Position numbers and translations under genes: made by a program. The notes beneath the pieces are model-generated. The model was not told where the DNA came from. It saw only the letters and a program-made list of their open reading frames with translations, and did no database searches. From Cupriavidus sp. WKF15 (GTDB lineage Bacteria; Pseudomonadota; Gammaproteobacteria; Burkholderiales; Burkholderiaceae), in contig NZ_CP119574.1 in NCBI RefSeq assembly GCF_029278605.1, positions 496,001-560,000 on the forward strand: DNA of 64,000 nucleotides, given 5' to 3'. Shown one piece after another: positions 36,939-42,451 of the stretch. How positions within the stretch are numbered: the stretch's first letter is position 1; every line of letters begins with the position of its first letter.

Positions 36939-38054
36939 ATGCACTTCGGTATCAGAGCAAATCTTGGTCAATTCCTGCAGCAACTACTGCAGGTTCTGCT
37001 CGTTGGCCTGACCATCGGGATGATGCGCAACGTTGTACCCGCGTTGGCCGAGTCTTAATTCGGCGTGCCACGCGGTTCATTCATGCTCTTGGTAGCCTTT
37101 GTCGTCGCCTTCGGCTTTGTGAAGGGCGCGATGAACTTCGTCGCGGGCCGTATGGCCGAACATTTTGGGCGAAAGCGAGTACTGCTGCTTGGCTGGCTCG
37201 TTGCCTTGCCAATACCCGCTTTGGTGTACTTGGCGACCAGTTGGTCGTGGATTGTGTTCGCGACCATCCTGCTCGGTATAAACCAAGGTCTGACCTGGTC
37301 CATGACTCAGACTGCGAAGCTCGATATCACGCGGGCGGACCAGCGGGGCTTGGTGATTGGTCTGAATGAATTGTCCGGTTACGTCGGCGTGGCGCTTGCT
37401 GGCGTTGTCACTGGATACCTCGCCTCGCTGCTCGGCCCACGGCAAGGTTTGCTCTGGTTCGGCGGCGTGGTCATCGGACTGGCCACGATTCTCGCTCGGC
37501 TCTCAGTGGTCGAGACCCCGCCTTGGGCGCGAGAAGAAGTAAAGCAACACGCAAGTCCGGCGGCACCAGCACTGCGCCCGAAATATCCGGAAGCGATTGG
37601 GCCGCAACCCACCACTGCAGAGATGTTTGCGCTGATGACCTGGCGTGACCGACGGATGGCAGCACTTTGCCAGGCTGGGATGGTCGAAAAGTTCGTCGAT
37701 GCCCTGGTCTGGGTGTTCTGGCCTGTTTATCTGCATCAGCGCGGGGTGAGCCTGCCTGGAATTGGGTGGATTGTCGGCGTCTATGGCTTTACCTGGGGTG
37801 CGGCACAGTTTTTCACCGGTAAGCTGTCGGACCGCATTGGCCGCCATCTTCTCAACACCTTTGGTATGTGGATTTGCGGCGCAGCTGTTGCGCTAATGTC
37901 GCTCGGCTCGGGCTCAACCTGGTGGAGCGCCCCTGCCGTGATAACCGGACTCGGTATGGCCATGCTTTACCCAAACCTGAGCGCGGCGGTCGCCGATATT
38001 GCCCATCCGGATTCGAGAGCTTCGGCCATCGGCATCTACCGATTTTAGCGTAAC
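36939..38054 (+). pseudogene. MFS transporter disrupted by two nonsense codons and an IS5 element
   Basis: From ATG 36939 the frame reads MHFGIRANLGQFLQQLLQVL..PALAES then TAA (37056-37058), and continues FGVPRGSFMLLVAFVV.. uninterrupted for 329 codons to IGIYRF and TAG (38046-38048), then R-N-L. Relatives have Glu and Trp at the two stop positions, so each is a single-base change. The MFS loops GRMAEHFGRKR and GKLSDRIGRH are intact. The frame runs into the CTAG duplication of the IS5 element, which removes the 3' end. A 327-residue product starting downstream of the first stop is possible but would lack helix 1. Confidence 0.85.
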
Positions 38055-38075
38055 CTAGGGAAAGACTGACCCGCT

Positions 38076-38979
38076 GTGCGACACGTGCTGCTGCCCACAG
38101 CGTGTCGAATGCCAAGTAGTAGGGGCGGCAAAGCTCGCTCTTGTCTTGTCGTATCCCAAGCGCCGAAGGAAAGCGTTTGGAACTGCGACCTGTTGTGCGA
38201 CCAACAGTTGCCTATCCAGACATGCTCAACTGGTAACGGCTGGGTATGAAGCTTTGGAGACAACGTGCCTCTCGATTGACGGCTCGCCCCGGTGACGGGA
38301 AGGGTCGACACTGCCAGCCATCGGCGGTGTGGGGTGCCAGGCAAGTTCCGCATGCGTAACGTAAGTGAATTGTTGATAAACCTCGTCATTTCCAAAGGGC
38401 CAAAACGGCTGACAGGCCCTGACCAAAAGGTGTGCAGCCGGTTGCTCCTCTAATCAGAAGGAGCACGTCGTCACAAGCGCTGCCGGGGGAAAGACAGACG
38501 CTAAACGGATAGGCCCGGGAACAGTCGGGTCGGCAAGAACGGGAACGTGGTAAGCCCGACTCTCTGCCGAGGTTCGGAACATCGAATCGTTGGCAAGCGA
38601 CCCGCGAGGGAAGCTGTTGGGGAAGCGGGTAAGAGAACGCGGAAAAAGCGAATGCCGATCTGTAATGGAACGGATAGGGGTTCGAACTTTGCCCCGGCCC
38701 GAAAGGGCGCAGACTTCCGCGAGGTGTGGCTGTCGCAGGCCAGTATTTGAGGTTCGACGAAGGGAAGCTTGGGAGAGGCTGCCTCGTTGCAGTTCAGCGC
38801 CCTCGTCTCAGCAATGGGATGAATCAACGATACGACGTTTGCGAAGGTCTTGAGCAGTACGGCGAGACCGGTATCAACTGATGATGCTTTAGCTGTGCTT
38901 GAGCCGTTTGCGGTGAAAGTCGCTTGGGCGGTTCTTTGGGGAGGGGGCGGCAGTGATGCTGTCTCCTTACCCGCTTAAT
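38076..38979 (+). ncRNA. ORF-less group II intron, copy A (degenerate)
   Basis: Starts GTGCGACACGTGCTGC, matching the group II 5' consensus GTGYG, and ends in AAT. A domain V-like hairpin lies at 38901-38934 (GAGCCGTTTGCG..GGGCGGTTC), followed by a 45-nt domain VI region (TTTGGGGAGGGGGCGGC..). It aligns end to end with copy B. Domain V pairing is weaker than in copy B, so this copy may not splice. No intron-encoded protein is present; a maturase would have to act in trans. It lies just inside the left terminus of the IS5 element. Confidence 0.8.
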
Positions 38980-39047
38980 CAGCGCGGCAGTCATCTGTGA
39001 GTGGCGTGTAAGCGTTGTCATGTGCATGCCCACGATATGAGTCGGAG

Positions 39048-40016
39048 ATGAAGCGACAGATCAGTTTTGCGGAAGCGGAAAGCCACGGCAAGAAGCGGGT
39101 GACGCGACGCGAGCGCTTCCTGACGGAGATGGAGAGTTTGGTGCCGTGGACGCGCCTGATTGCGGCGGTCGAGCCGTACTACCCCAAGGGCAAACGTGGA
39201 CGGCCGCCGATCGGTCTGGAGCGGATGCTGCGCATCTACTTCCTGCAGCAGTGGTACGGGTTGTCGGACGAAGCGCTGGAAGACGCGCTGTACGACAGCA
39301 TGGCGATGCGGGCGTTTGCCGGGGTCGACCTGGCGGTCGAAGCGGTGCCAGACGCGACCACGCTGCTGAAGTTTCGCCGCCTGCTCGTCGAGCATGAACT
39401 GACGCGAAAGCTGTTCGACGAGATCGGCATCATGTTGTGCGAGCGGGGGCTGATGATGAAGGAAGGCACGATTGTGGATGCCACTATCATCGAGGCGCCG
39501 CCGTCGACCAAGAACAAGGAGAAGAGCCGCGACCCGGAGATGCACCAGACCAAGAAGGGTAATGAATGGCATTTTGGTATGAAGGCACATGTCGGCGTGG
39601 ATGCGGCTTCGCGGCTGGTGCACAGCGTGGTGGGCACGGCGGCCAACGAGTCGGATGTGTCGCAGGCGCATGCCTTGCTGCATGGCCACGAGAAGCTCGC
39701 GTTTGGCGACGCGGGCTACACGGTCGTGGACAAGCGCAAGGAGATGCAAGGCAAGTCCGTGAAGTGGCGGGTGGCCGTCAAGCGCGGCAAGATCAAGGCG
39801 ATGCGTGACGGTGCGTTCAAGGAGCTCCTGATCGCCGTGGAGCGGACCAAGGCCCAGATTCGGGCGCGGGTCGAGCATCCGTTCCACGTCATCAAGAATC
39901 TCTTCGGTCATCGCAAGGTTCGCTACAAGGGCCTGGTCAAGAACACGGCGCAGTTGTTCAGCCTGTTTGGTCTGGCGAATCTGGTGCTCGCCAGGAAGCT
40001 GTTGTTGGCCTCATAG
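39048..40016 (+). CDS. IS5-family DDE transposase
   Basis: A 322-residue transposase starting MKRQISFAEAESHGKKRVTR, typical for the IS5 group. Catalytic residues are D144 (TIVDATIIEAP), D221 (AFGDAGYT) and E276 (RVEHPFHVIKNLFG). The frame is intact. ATG 39048 directly follows GTCGGAG. The element's ends are now split by introns, so transposition would be impaired even if the protein is made. Confidence 0.93.
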   Translation: MKRQISFAEAESHGKKRVTRRERFLTEMESLVPWTRLIAAVEPYYPKGKRGRPPIGLERMLRIYFLQQWYGLSDEALEDALYDSMAMRAFAGVDLAVEAVPDATTLLKFRRLLVEHELTRKLFDEIGIMLCERGLMMKEGTIVDATIIEAPPSTKNKEKSRDPEMHQTKKGNEWHFGMKAHVGVDAASRLVHSVVGTAANESDVSQAHALLHGHEKLAFGDAGYTVVDKRKEMQGKSVKWRVAVKRGKIKAMRDGAFKELLIAVERTKAQIRARVEHPFHVIKNLFGHRKVRYKGLVKNTAQLFSLFGLANLVLARKLLLAS

Positions 40017-40058
40017 GGGAGCAATCCGTCCTGAGCGCGCAAAGCGCGCCAGGAAAGG

Positions 40059-41425
40059 GAGCCTGTCAGATTTTTAGTGTGCCGAGGTCATGAGACGATT
40101 ACGGAAACGTCCAATGACCGACACGACAGTGAACAAGAAGAGCAAGAACCCGAAGGCACCGAAGCTGTTTCCCGATGAGCTGATCGATCAACTGCTGGCC
40201 CAGGTGCAGAGCAAGGATGCCGAGTCGATCCTGGGCGAATCGGGCTTGGCCGGCCAGCTCAAGAAGCAGTTGGCCGAGCGTATGCTCGCCGCCGAGTTGA
40301 GTCACCATCTGGATAACGAGGCCGAGCAAGGCAAGACCGGCAACCACCGCAACGGCACCAGCCCCAAGACGGTCCTGACGCCCAACGGTGAGCTGAATCT
40401 GGATATTCCGCGCGATCGGCAGGCGACGTTCGAGCCCCAATTGGTCGGCAAGTATCAACGCCGGCTGCCTGGCTTCGACGACCACGTCATCAGCATGTAT
40501 GCGCGCGGCATGAGCGTGCGCGAGATTCAGGGCCATCTGCTGGAGCTGTACGGGCTGCAGGTATCGCCCGATCTGATTTCCACGGTCACCGACGAGGTGC
40601 TGGCTGACGTCGAGCAATGGCAGCAACGCCCGCTCGAGGCCATGTATCCGATCGTGTACTTTGACGCGCTACGACTGAAGATTCGCGACGAAGGCACGGT
40701 CAAGAACAAGGCGGTCTATCTGGCGCTGGGCATCCGCGCCGACGGCCGCAAGGAAGTGCTAGGTCTGTGGATCGAGCAAACCGAAGGCGCCAAGTTCTGG
40801 CTGAAGGTCTTCAACGAACTGAAGAACCGCGGCTTGCACGACGTCCTGATCGCGGTGGTCGACGGCTTGCGCGGCTTCCCCGAGGCGATCGAGGCGGTCT
40901 ATCCGGCCGCGCAAATCCAGACCTGCATCGTGCATCTGATCCGCAATTCGCTGAATCTGGCGAGCTGGAAGGACCGTAAGCCGTTGGCTGCCGCGCTCAA
41001 GCCGATCTATCAGGCCGCCACGGCCGAGGCGGCGGCCGCAGCGCTCGACACCTTTGCGGGAAGTGAGTGGGGACGCAAATTCCCTACCGTCGCGGCCATG
41101 TGGCAGCGCCAATGGGAACAGGTGATTCCCTTCTTCGTCTATCCGCCTGAGGTGCGTCGAATCATCTATACGACAAACGCCATCGAGAGCATGCACATGC
41201 AGTTGCGCAAGATCGTCAAGAATCGCGGCCACTTCCCCAGCGACGAGGCCGCCAGCAAACTGCTGTATCTGGCCTTGCGCAACATCGAAAAGGATTGGAA
41301 GATGCCACCTATCACCTGGCGGCAAGCAGTCAATCAGTTCGCCATTCTGTTTGGCGAGCGATTCACCTCCGCCATGAGCTGAGATTTTTTAACCGACCTC
41401 AGCACACAAAATTCCTGACACCTCC
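40059..41425 (+). mobile_element. IS256-family element inserted in the IS5 3' region
   Basis: A 1367-bp element. Inner terminal repeats TGTCAGATTTTTAGTGTGCC (from 40064) and reverse complement TGTCAGGAATTTTGTGTGCT (to 41420) are both followed inward by GAGGTC. An 8-bp duplication AGGAAAGG flanks it (40051-40058 and 41426-41433) if the ends are set 5 bp outside TGTCAG. Removing it rejoins the IS5 tail as GCGCCAGGAAAGGTGCGAA. Confidence 0.85.
40114..41382 (+). CDS. IS256-family DDE transposase
   Basis: A 422-residue transposase from ATG 40114 (an in-frame ATG at 40090 adds MRRLRKRP). Catalytic D184 (VYFDALRLKIRDEG), D250 (AVVDGLRGFP) and E358 (TTNAIESMHMQLRK) match the family signature. Intact and probably functional. 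Confidence 0.94.
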   Translation: MTDTTVNKKSKNPKAPKLFPDELIDQLLAQVQSKDAESILGESGLAGQLKKQLAERMLAAELSHHLDNEAEQGKTGNHRNGTSPKTVLTPNGELNLDIPRDRQATFEPQLVGKYQRRLPGFDDHVISMYARGMSVREIQGHLLELYGLQVSPDLISTVTDEVLADVEQWQQRPLEAMYPIVYFDALRLKIRDEGTVKNKAVYLALGIRADGRKEVLGLWIEQTEGAKFWLKVFNELKNRGLHDVLIAVVDGLRGFPEAIEAVYPAAQIQTCIVHLIRNSLNLASWKDRKPLAAALKPIYQAATAEAAAAALDTFAGSEWGRKFPTVAAMWQRQWEQVIPFFVYPPEVRRIIYTTNAIESMHMQLRKIVKNRGHFPSDEAASKLLYLALRNIEKDWKMPPITWRQAVNQFAILFGERFTSAMS

Positions 41426-41528
41426 AGGAAAGGTGCGAAACGAGAGAAAAAATGGCTTGAATCGGCCCATCTCTCCCGCGTTGCGAAAATCGAAATCCTT
41501 GGCTTGTGCAACATCAAGCGCAAACCTC

Positions 41529-42434
41529 ATTAGCGGGTAAGGGAACGACGTCACCGTCGCCCCCTCCCCAAAGAACCGTACGTGCGAGTTTCCCCGCATA
41601 CGGCTCGCGCATGGCTAAAGCACCGTTGCCCGGCGCCGGCCTTTCCATACAGCACAAGACCTTCGCATACGTCATATCGTTGGCCCATCTCATTGCTGAG
41701 GCGGAGGCGCTGAACTGCCGTAAAACAACGACAGTCTCTTCCAAGCTGCCCCGCGTTGGACCGCAAATACTGGTTCGCGACAGCCACACCTCGCGCAAGT
41801 CTGCACCCTTTCAGGTCGGAGCAAAGTTTGAACTCCTATCCGGACGATTACAGTCTGGCATTCGCTTTTTGCGCGTTCTCTTACCCGCTTCCCCAACAGC
41901 TTCCCTCACGGGTCGCTTGCCAACGATTCGATGTTCTAAATGTTGGCAGAGAATCGGGCTTACCACGTTCCCGTTCTTGCCGACCTCGGCGATACCTCCA
42001 GCCCGAGGACTGTCCGTTTAGCGCCCGCCTATCCCACGGCAGCCCTGATGACGACGTGCCCCTACTGATCAAAGGAGCAACCAGCTGCTTACCTTTTGGT
42101 CAGGGCCTACCAGCCGCTTTGGCCCATCGGAATTGACGCGGTTTATCAGCGATTCACATCTGTTGCGCATGCGGAAATTTCCTAGTCCCTACACCGCGTT
42201 GCGGCTTGCAGCGTCGCCACCATTCGTCGCCGAATCATGACGTCTTTCGACGGGTACATTGTCCCCGGAGCTTCAGACCCGACGATTACTCATCACGCCT
42301 GTCCAGGTAGGAGACTGCTGGTCGTACAGCAGGTCACAGCACACTAGTACCGTATGTGACAAGACAAGAACGAACTTCGCTGCCCGCTGAAACTTGACTA
42401 CCGACACGCCGCGGGCAAGCAGCACGTGTCGCAC
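41529..42434 (-). ncRNA. ORF-less group II intron, copy B
   Basis: On the minus strand it begins GTGCGACACGTGCTGCTTGC at 42434 and ends AAT at 41529. A canonical 34-nt domain V is at 41573-41606: GAGCCGTATGCG, then GGGAAACT, then CGCACGTACGGTTC, with the catalytic AGC triad and GAAA-like loop. A domain VI stem follows (GGGGGCGACGG..). It is homologous to copy A along its length and has no reading frame for an intron protein. Lies just inside the right terminus of the IS5 element. Confidence 0.88.
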
Positions 42435-42451
42435 GATCAGCGATTCCCTAG

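Follow-up and report, generated by a model that had tools for sequence, protein, structure and literature searches.

The two ends of one IS5-family element appear to have been entered by two related, diverged ORF-less group II introns in separate retrohoming events, each through a composite site and with a helper acting in trans; we put the probability of this reading at roughly 85%. The window, in whose positions all coordinates are given, is a 64,000-nt stretch of Cupriavidus sp. WKF15 (NZ_CP119574.1, positions 496,001-560,000; assembly GCF_029278605.1). The element spans 38059-42447, is flanked by CTAG duplications, and carries one intron inside each terminus and an IS256 in its tail (Table 1).

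Table 1. Parts of the IS5-family element and its insertions, in window positions.
Feature	Position	Strand	Remarks
Left CTAG target duplication	38055..38058	.	TA of the homing site (-16/-15), before the damage, comes from here; intact copies (L083, others) have YTAR in that spot
Left IS tip / 5' exon, GGAAAGACTGA + CCCGCT	38059..38075	+	Terminal bases are a copy of the intron 3' end, TT replaced
Left ORF-less group II intron, 900 nt	38076..38975	+	RF02012, RF00029
IS5 body, 5' part, with first IS256 duplication copy (40051-40058)	38976..40058	+	94-95% to intact L083
IS5-family transposase ORF, uninterrupted	39051..40016	+	NF033581, DDE_Tnp_1, DUF772
IS256-family element, 1367 bp	40059..41425	+	8-bp duplication AGGAAAGG at 40051-40058 and 41426-41433
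IS256-family transposase	40090-41382		NF033543 profile passed
IS5 right part; 3' exon of right intron (AATGAGG... on - strand)	41426..41531	+	91% to L083
Right ORF-less group II intron, 903 nt	41532..42434	-	RF02012, RF00029
Right IS tip / 5' exon GGAATCGCTGATC, 13 nt; IBS2 GGAAT, IBS1 CTGATC	42435..42447	-	EBS1/EBS2 pairing
Right CTAG target duplication	42448..42451	.	

The element and its two introns

The host element encodes an IS5-type DDE transposase, which scores 352.9 bits with NF033581 (cut-off 140) and matches Pfam PF01609 (DDE_Tnp_1) and PF05598 (DUF772). It also has the terminal repeats and short duplication of the family, with tips GGAAAGACTGA.. and GGAATCGCTGATC and CTAG present at both flanks, as an earlier note on this DNA had claimed. 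The IS256 with its 8-bp duplication, described in the same note, is matched by NF033543; of the plasmid relatives with 30% query coverage, the nine best are 85-94% alike. The 1204 bp that the note expected after removal of all three inserts becomes 1211 bp when the lengths are recalculated with corrected intron ends. The search it proposed for an empty IS in relatives yielded L083, an intact IS of 1205 bp with both ends empty at the same sites.

The group II identity of both segments was assessed with the Rfam covariance models, as the note had advised, and all matches lie above the gathering cut-offs. RF02012 (domain I-IV core; cut-off 34) matches at 38189-38335 (+, 102.1 bits) and 42333-42186 (-, 109.1 bits), and RF00029 (domain V/VI; cut-off 40) at 38899-38975 (+, 50.7 bits) and 41608-41532 (-, 65.4 bits), the left intron thus having the lower domain V/VI score. 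The proposed homology and opposite orientation of the two segments hold as well, since their inverted alignment has arms of 254, 177, 91 and 83 nt at 80-87% and reaches 76% overall. Concerning the boundaries, the starts were placed correctly, but the claimed AAT end was not: AAT already occurs in the empty IS ends (the right site in L083 reads GATC^AATGAGG) and both RF00029 matches stop before it, at ...ACCCGCT. AAT is therefore 3' exon, and the introns finish ...ACCCGCT at 38975 and 41532.

That both introns are ORF-less was confirmed: they are too short for a reverse transcriptase (RT) of 567-573 aa and no ORF longer than 171 aa overlaps either of them. The alignment of the left intron to the RT-bearing L242 breaks about 110 nt before the RT ORF and restarts in its final codons, which points to an origin by ORF deletion. 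Both introns are members of a Burkholderiaceae intron family. An IStron, in which a single intron encloses an IS and the two are spliced out together, was also considered and rejected, as the window has two introns, both complete from start to end and oppositely oriented.

Guide pairing and a proposed composite homing site

The right intron pairs with its own exon at 6/6 positions through EBS1 (GATCAG) and at 5/5 through EBS2 (ATTCC), and the left intron fits its tip in the undamaged form but not the exon now present. Each forms 11/11 Watson-Crick pairs with the type of tip found at its end and 9/11 with the other type (the right intron with one G-U more). On the IS, EBS2 covers the first 5 nt from the outer edge (-13 to -9) and EBS1 covers nucleotides 8-13 (-6 to -1). 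The claim that the homing site lies within the terminal repeat, so that both inverted ends were occupied, thus stands in a refined form, the pairing being with a 13-nt tip that differs between the ends. The simpler idea that both ends were filled because of identical sequence does not quite hold, as the tips differ at EBS-contacted positions.

Further copies of the intron family were compared. At least 119 stretches matched in one intron search, and 29 of the 119 contained an alignable intron; one genome scan scored two candidates per genome. Seven of the 29 were left out on inspection by eye, six for sharing a site with another copy (L133, L134, L144, L171, L182, L223) and L197 for a displaced start. 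A readable 5' start was required of every copy throughout, and removal of 3 duplicates reduced the 5' exon set from 51 to 48. Some transposase-like ORFs and flanks were judged by eye and not by profile.

With EBS1 at a fixed loop position, 26 introns formed 142 of 156 possible pairs (only introns with a 20-nt EBS1 loop were used, 26 left, L272 added), and 5000 shuffles gave 63.5 (sd 7.8, max 92). For EBS2, likewise fixed to one column, 31 introns formed 139 of 155 pairs (32 rows left once 20 copies that were short, broken or duplicates had been dropped), and 1000 shuffles gave 66.6 (sd 6.2, max 88); both sets of shuffles ignore intron kinship, and columns chosen as best-scoring favour the real pairing, yet the shuffles lie far off. 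The fixed-column test replaced an earlier, weak one in which EBS2 was sought in a free window (18 of the 48 without a readable EBS1 hairpin dropped, 30 left), with 156/180 pairs against 145.1 (sd 2.8, max 153). Counted by eye, the 31 rows hold 22 different EBS2 pentamers, and copies of the family also sit at many unrelated targets, where the EBS matches too. The guide sequences of the two window introns fit the outermost letters of their own end types, which argues, at the level of sequence, that this is a parasite homing to the tips of such jumping genes.

Besides the EBS-matched bases, conservation is found only at YA, -16/-15. The unique 5' exons have A at -15 in 42/48 and T at -16 in 36/48, positions elsewhere from -30 to -1 staying at or below 0.28 bits; exons outside the IS5-like tip set have A at -15 in 28/30 and T or C at -16 in 27/30. 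Since the IS5-family duplication, often YTAR, puts TA at -16/-15, the duplication and the 13-nt IS tip together make up the homing site, and IS5 insertions therefore tend to create such sites at both ends. The spacing is exact: YTAR followed by a 13-nt tip and the intron start was matched 12 times, in 8 of the 398 genomes of the window's family, and the same pattern with a 12-nt or a 14-nt tip had no match in these 398 genomes. Among 18 IS5-like tips, assigned as such from IS structure beyond the tip in a few and from tip likeness or ORFs judged by eye in the others, two are damaged (winL, the window's left one, and L080); the other 16 comprise 11 with YTAR, 2 with GTAA and three with neither (L064, L187, L219). 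A tblastn search of 51 copies with the window transposase gave relatives in the window and L075 and nowhere else, apart from a weak match of 49 residues in L162.

At the left junction, the 5' exon reads GGAAAGACTGACCCGCT, where intact L083 and the clean copies L075 and L071 read GGAAAGACTGATT, its TT having given way to bases that repeat the end of the intron itself (CCCGCT). Left EBS1 pairs at 3/6 positions with the present exon and at 6/6 with the undamaged CTGATT. The left copy is damaged in its present state, its IBS1 having been overwritten by a copy of the intron 3' end. A possible route is template switching, the RT copying on from the intron 5' end into the 3' terminus of a second intron RNA, or round an intron circle. 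The same few bases would remain if two introns had inserted in tandem and a deletion had followed, or could stand there by chance, and the intron-tail junction was seen in only 2 of the 48 unique 5' exons, winL and L080. However, these two carry the oddity (6-7 and 10 nt matching the 3' terminus of the respective intron) at two different IS tip types, both with a 6/6 EBS1 fit to the tip of a related undamaged copy, and we give tandem insertion or chance somewhat less than even odds. The repeated junction may be a natural trace of template switching in retrohoming.

Movement between IS ends and other occupied ends

The right intron is identical at 903/903 positions to a copy at another IS5 end of the same genome (G000:C2:1026463-1027365), whereas the IS flanks of the two (108 bp) are 87% alike and the adjoining 5' exons read GGAATC and GGGATC; the right intron thus looks recently moved. 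The left intron is 94% alike to L075 (G023) and 93% to L272 (G353), which occupy the same kind of IS tip, and the L272 IS is only 75-79% alike to that of the window. As the introns are far more alike than the surrounding IS, they move independently of it, and would have spread between IS ends without the IS moving. A single intron entry followed by IS transposition, the outermost 13 nt being still recognised by the transposase, would agree with the CTAG seen on either side of the window's occupied IS and of L272. These duplications are, however, accounted for by transposition preceding intron entry, and the excess likeness of the introns, the empty ends of a 95% relative (L083) and the lack of a second full IS copy in the same genome among the 40 of 115 candidates scored make this course very improbable.

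Gene conversion from one IS end to another, in place of retrohoming, could likewise put an identical right intron into two IS ends of one genome, but the differing flanks and adjoining 5' exon, and the unrelated targets with matching EBS, leave it very improbable. On the intron tree, 4 changes suffice to explain the IS-tip label, where shuffled labels need 10.9; the forks that decide whether left and right introns group together are weak.

For separate retrohoming, the RT would be supplied in trans, probably from RT-bearing introns resident in the genome, and we infer that it reads YA at -16/-15. Candidate helpers are four RT genes of 568-573 aa, lying in introns that can be aligned at the RNA level with the ORF-less introns; one is an RT-maturase-HNH by Pfam and another is recognised by the group II RT model. 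Judged by eye, 3 of the 4 candidate helper introns have TA at -17/-16 of the 5' exon, one base off the YA position, which speaks against this scheme.

Intron matches on both strands were found in the window itself and in 0 of 279 other loci examined; loci with several intron matches had all of them in one orientation. A 52-bp perfect palindrome in genome G076 (CTAG-tip-intron start-tip-CTAG), too short to be caught by that two-strand scan, suggests a second case of both ends occupied. Another tip of the palindrome type in G076 continues differently. When an inverted tip with the same 4-bp duplication was sought downstream of the intron in 50 copies, one convincing mate appeared, the left tip for the window's right intron; L113 and L126 had a perfect inverted tip, the duplication being absent in that search. 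On closer reading, L113 and L273 have both tips with TAA on each side, and L272 has both tips with CTAG.

Possible meaning and comparison with known systems

We regard it as an even bet that the ORF-less introns are partly specialised on IS5 elements through the composite site, two duplication bases being read by the helper protein and the 13 outermost IS bases by RNA. As the IS prefers YTAR, most of its insertions would write two fresh homing sites, and occupancy may freeze the IS in place; with the transposase gene left whole, this would amount to a natural, retargetable brake on the spread of the IS. Such an arrangement offers a concrete reason why a retroelement should keep a constant distance to the tips of transposons, since the target preference of the one element provides a piece of the site to which the other homes. 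Whether group II introns hold back IS spread by capping the ends thereby becomes open to test, and the family, with its great variety of guide sequences, is a natural collection in which to study target recognition.

ORF-less introns that target an IS are already on record, as is homing to the two inverted repeats of an IS, and the window case is a variant of these. RmInt2 of Sinorhizobium meliloti has been described in both inverted repeats of ISRm17 (PMC8496243), so the earlier note was too broad in knowing of no example with both terminal repeats occupied; for both ends of one IS copy, we found no report in the open-licence literature, and that narrower part stands. Compared by description, the window introns differ from RmInt2 in having no RT ORF, in a different intron at each end, and in a target duplication that contributes to the site.

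The TeI3 introns of Thermosynechococcus elongatus are described as ORF-less with ORF remnants, with EBS diverged to new targets and movement by IEPs encoded elsewhere; one TeI3 family lies in a conserved site of the IS200-type ISEL1, identical inner introns occur in diverged hosts, and the TeI4h protein encoded in that genome prefers A-15 and C-16 (PMC2882425). The window introns resemble TeI3, as far as that account goes, in ORF deletion, EBS divergence, an IS as target, identical introns in diverged hosts and, presumably, a helper elsewhere. Their site, however, is the extreme tip of IS5-family elements, at both ends, whereas that of TeI3 is given as a conserved site within ISEL1.

RmInt1 has its natural target within ISRm2011-2 (IS630 family), where insertion is said to block IS spread (PMC5894124), and it encodes its own protein (PMC8914252). 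The window introns share the target in an IS but, going by these descriptions, differ in having no RT ORF and in occupying both IS ends. The IStron, described as a chimera of one group I intron and an IS (PMC4227781), likewise joins ribozyme and IS in one element; in the window, by contrast, two whole group II introns lie inside the ends of the IS.

Architecture of the element and its intron boundaries

The genome that carries the window consists of three contigs (7.4 Mb), and the window lies on the contig C3. The earlier note had described an IS5-family element with one group II intron in each end and an IS256 element in its tail, and this description proved right in its main points. The IS5 transposase ORF is unbroken and passed the IS5 profile in a profile search. 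Both end segments score above the cut-offs in the Rfam models for group II domains I-IV and V/VI, and the supposed relation between the two intron segments was confirmed by alignment (76% alike). The introns, of 900 and 903 nt, leave no room for the reverse transcriptase (RT) of their relatives. The MFS-type ORF beside the element is possibly a gene that the IS, together with a point change, has disrupted. Six genomes of the same genus (L094-L099) have a common IS5 copy in which the query stretch 433-611 is replaced by about 0.7 kb.

Features in and beside the IS5-family element (window coordinates)
Feature	Coordinates	Strand	Remarks
MFS-type ORF	37065-38048		ends in TAG, ten bases short of the IS and six short of its CTAG
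IS5-family element	38059-42447		CTAG on either flank
Left intron	38076-38975	+	
Right intron	41532-42434	-	
IS256-family element			inside the IS5 tail; 1367 bp; 8-bp duplication

An intact relative with both ends empty, L083 (IS body 95% alike over 1077 bp), reads CTAG-GGAAAGACTGATT-TAATCAGCG at its left end and CTAG-GGAATCGCTGATC-AATGAGG at its right end. Since intact relatives show the empty ends, the right intron can be placed as a clean insertion at GATC^AATGAGG, with GTGCGAC at its start and ACCCGCT at its end. These termini recur in the left intron, whose 5' exon ends in GACTGACCCGCT in place of GACTGATT; the clean GACTGATT is present at two other left-end intron copies, L075 and the 96-nt fragment L071. 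The bases preceding the intron equal the intron's own final 6-7 nt at the window's left end and its final 10 nt in another copy, L080. In these two copies EBS1, a guide loop pairing with the 5' exon, matches the tip of an undamaged relative at 6/6 positions, versus 3/6 and 0/6 for the present exon. Such an intron-tail junction would form if the RT, having copied the intron RNA to its 5' end, passed to the 3' terminus of a second intron or went on round a circle; a deletion within a tandem intron pair would yield the same junction. Because its EBS1 pairs poorly with the present exon, the left copy should splice poorly, and the right copy may splice.

The IS tip as a homing site

Among the IS copies inspected, a duplication, either YTAR, which is frequent in the IS5 family, or TAA, immediately precedes the tip (the outermost 13 nt of the IS, which is the 5' exon of the intron). 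If the intron enters 13 nt inside the IS, the TA of the duplication lands at -16/-15, counted upstream from the intron start. A scan of 398 genomes from the window's family for YTAR, GR, 11 free bases and intron start gave 12 matches in 8 genomes, two of the 12 being both strands of one palindrome; with one base fewer or one base more there were no matches in these 398 genomes. The tip types include GGAAAGACTGATT, GGAATCGCTGATC, GAGACNGTTTCAA, GAAGCTTTAACAA and GGATGGTGTYCAA. YTAR accompanies 11 of 16 undamaged IS5-like tips, GTAA two and neither of them three. The uninterrupted junction of the GAGACCGTTTCAA type matched 200 plasmid records (195 over at least 80% of the junction), and two among the ten matches listed are annotated ISJp4 or ISRme6. 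Both tips are present in the IS of locus L272, with CTAG twice and the right tip empty, and in that of L273, with TAA on either side. In addition to these two loci, matching IS sequence adjoins the intron in the window, L070 and L075; the remaining tips were assigned by resemblance.

When the 5' exons were scanned, unguided, for complementarity to the aligned 5' part of the intron, the result was one loop matching the final six bases of the exon and a second loop matching bases farther out. Across 26 introns, EBS1 at a fixed loop position makes 142 of the 156 pairs possible, with perfect pairing in 19 introns (5000 shuffles: mean 63.5, maximum 92), and EBS2 at a fixed column makes 139 of 155 in 31 introns (1000 shuffles: mean 66.6, maximum 88), though both positions were chosen as best-scoring and the introns are related, not independent, so that the shuffle numbers are not probabilities. 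The left intron shows 11/11 Watson-Crick pairs with the left tip type versus 9/11 with the right tip, and the right intron 11/11 with the right tip versus 9/11 plus one G-U with the left. Judged by these pairings, each window intron is tuned to its own IS end; cross-homing of either one to the opposite end may occur.

The collection comprises 51 copies with a readable 5' start, and 48 distinct 5' exons are represented among them. The remaining 5' exon is free but for two bases, A at -15 (42/48) and T at -16 (36/48). Because the preference is kept in 30 exons outside IS5-like tips, with A at -15 in 28 and T or C at -16 in 27, it is a property of the intron system and not of the IS. A-15 and C-16 are described as preferred by a Thermosynechococcus group II protein in PMC2882425.

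Movement, spread and candidate helpers

The introns move separately from the IS. A copy on contig C2, in a different IS5 end, matches the right intron at all 903 nt, the adjoining 108 bp of IS being 87% alike. Between the left intron and its counterpart in L272, from another genus, identity is 93%, versus 75-79% for the IS body. No complete case of both ends occupied was found besides the window among 279 loci. The genome G076 contains a 52-bp perfect palindrome consisting of CTAG, tip, GTGCGACAC and then the mirror image, and another tip of this type in G076 continues with GTAACC, not GTGCGAC. On the simplest reading, this scar would be an IS whose ends were once both occupied, collapsed between two palindromic intron starts.

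The intron family extends over plasmids and genomes of Cupriavidus, Paraburkholderia, Caballeronia and other Burkholderiaceae, and a Rhodanobacter contig has one 143-nt stretch of it. With two candidates scored in each genome and a threshold of 1e-80, matches came from 15 of 299 genomes belonging to the window's bacterial family. Targets are very diverse, with IS5-type ends and flanks that, read by eye, resemble IS3-, IS4- and IS110-type transposase genes. L077 and L078 (G028) have the intron and the visible 5' flank (45-60 nt) in common and diverge exactly at the intron 3' end, as if this were the edge of a moving unit. On two Paraburkholderia plasmids (L065, and L066 near 2890) an IS110-family start codon, which is annotated in L065, follows the intron start within a few bases, TTGCGAC replaces GTGCGAC, and the 3' flanks differ. 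On a Paraburkholderia sediminicola contig (L126) a perfect inverted repeat of the 13 nt preceding the intron lies 1027 nt downstream of the intron start; the pair may mark the termini of a further small IS. A circular 2.8-kb Pseudomonas aeruginosa 'plasmid' (L067; CP075775.1, 2837 bp), with a group II intron ltrA as its sole annotated gene, could be a circular form of an intron, or else a product of the assembly.

Four introns in the genome of the window carry an RT gene (L240-L243; 568-573 aa), and their RNA can be aligned to the left intron at 63-72%. The L242 RT has RT, maturase and HNH domains (Pfam) and the L240 RT passes the group II RT model; for the remaining two the test covered the RT domain only. 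Against L242, the alignment of the left intron breaks off some 110 nt upstream of the ORF and is taken up again within its last eleven codons; against L240 this happens at the stop codon. We infer that these four proteins could drive the ORF-less introns in trans; a helper may also be among the seven other RT genes of the genome. L240, L241, L242 and L243 (contig C1, near 2.92, 0.52, 3.67 and 0.23 Mb) start, by eye, 10-11 nt after a TANAAT box (TACAAT, TAGAAT, TATAAT and TACAAT, respectively), as though promoter -10 elements marked the place to home, immediately downstream. For a second reverse transcriptase, of 514 aa, there are six equal-score matches on C1, at 60626, 887746, 1322350, 2649875, 2923788 and 3014593.

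Place among known systems

Our search of the open-licence literature found no single IS copy with both ends filled by different, end-matched ORF-less introns, and no report of a composite homing site formed by target duplication and IS tip. Homing into both inverted repeats of an IS has been described for the intron RmInt2 and ISRm17 in Sinorhizobium meliloti. The introns of the window are comparable to those of T. elongatus, which, according to PMC2882425, are likewise ORF-less, have altered EBS, are driven in trans and are located in an IS.
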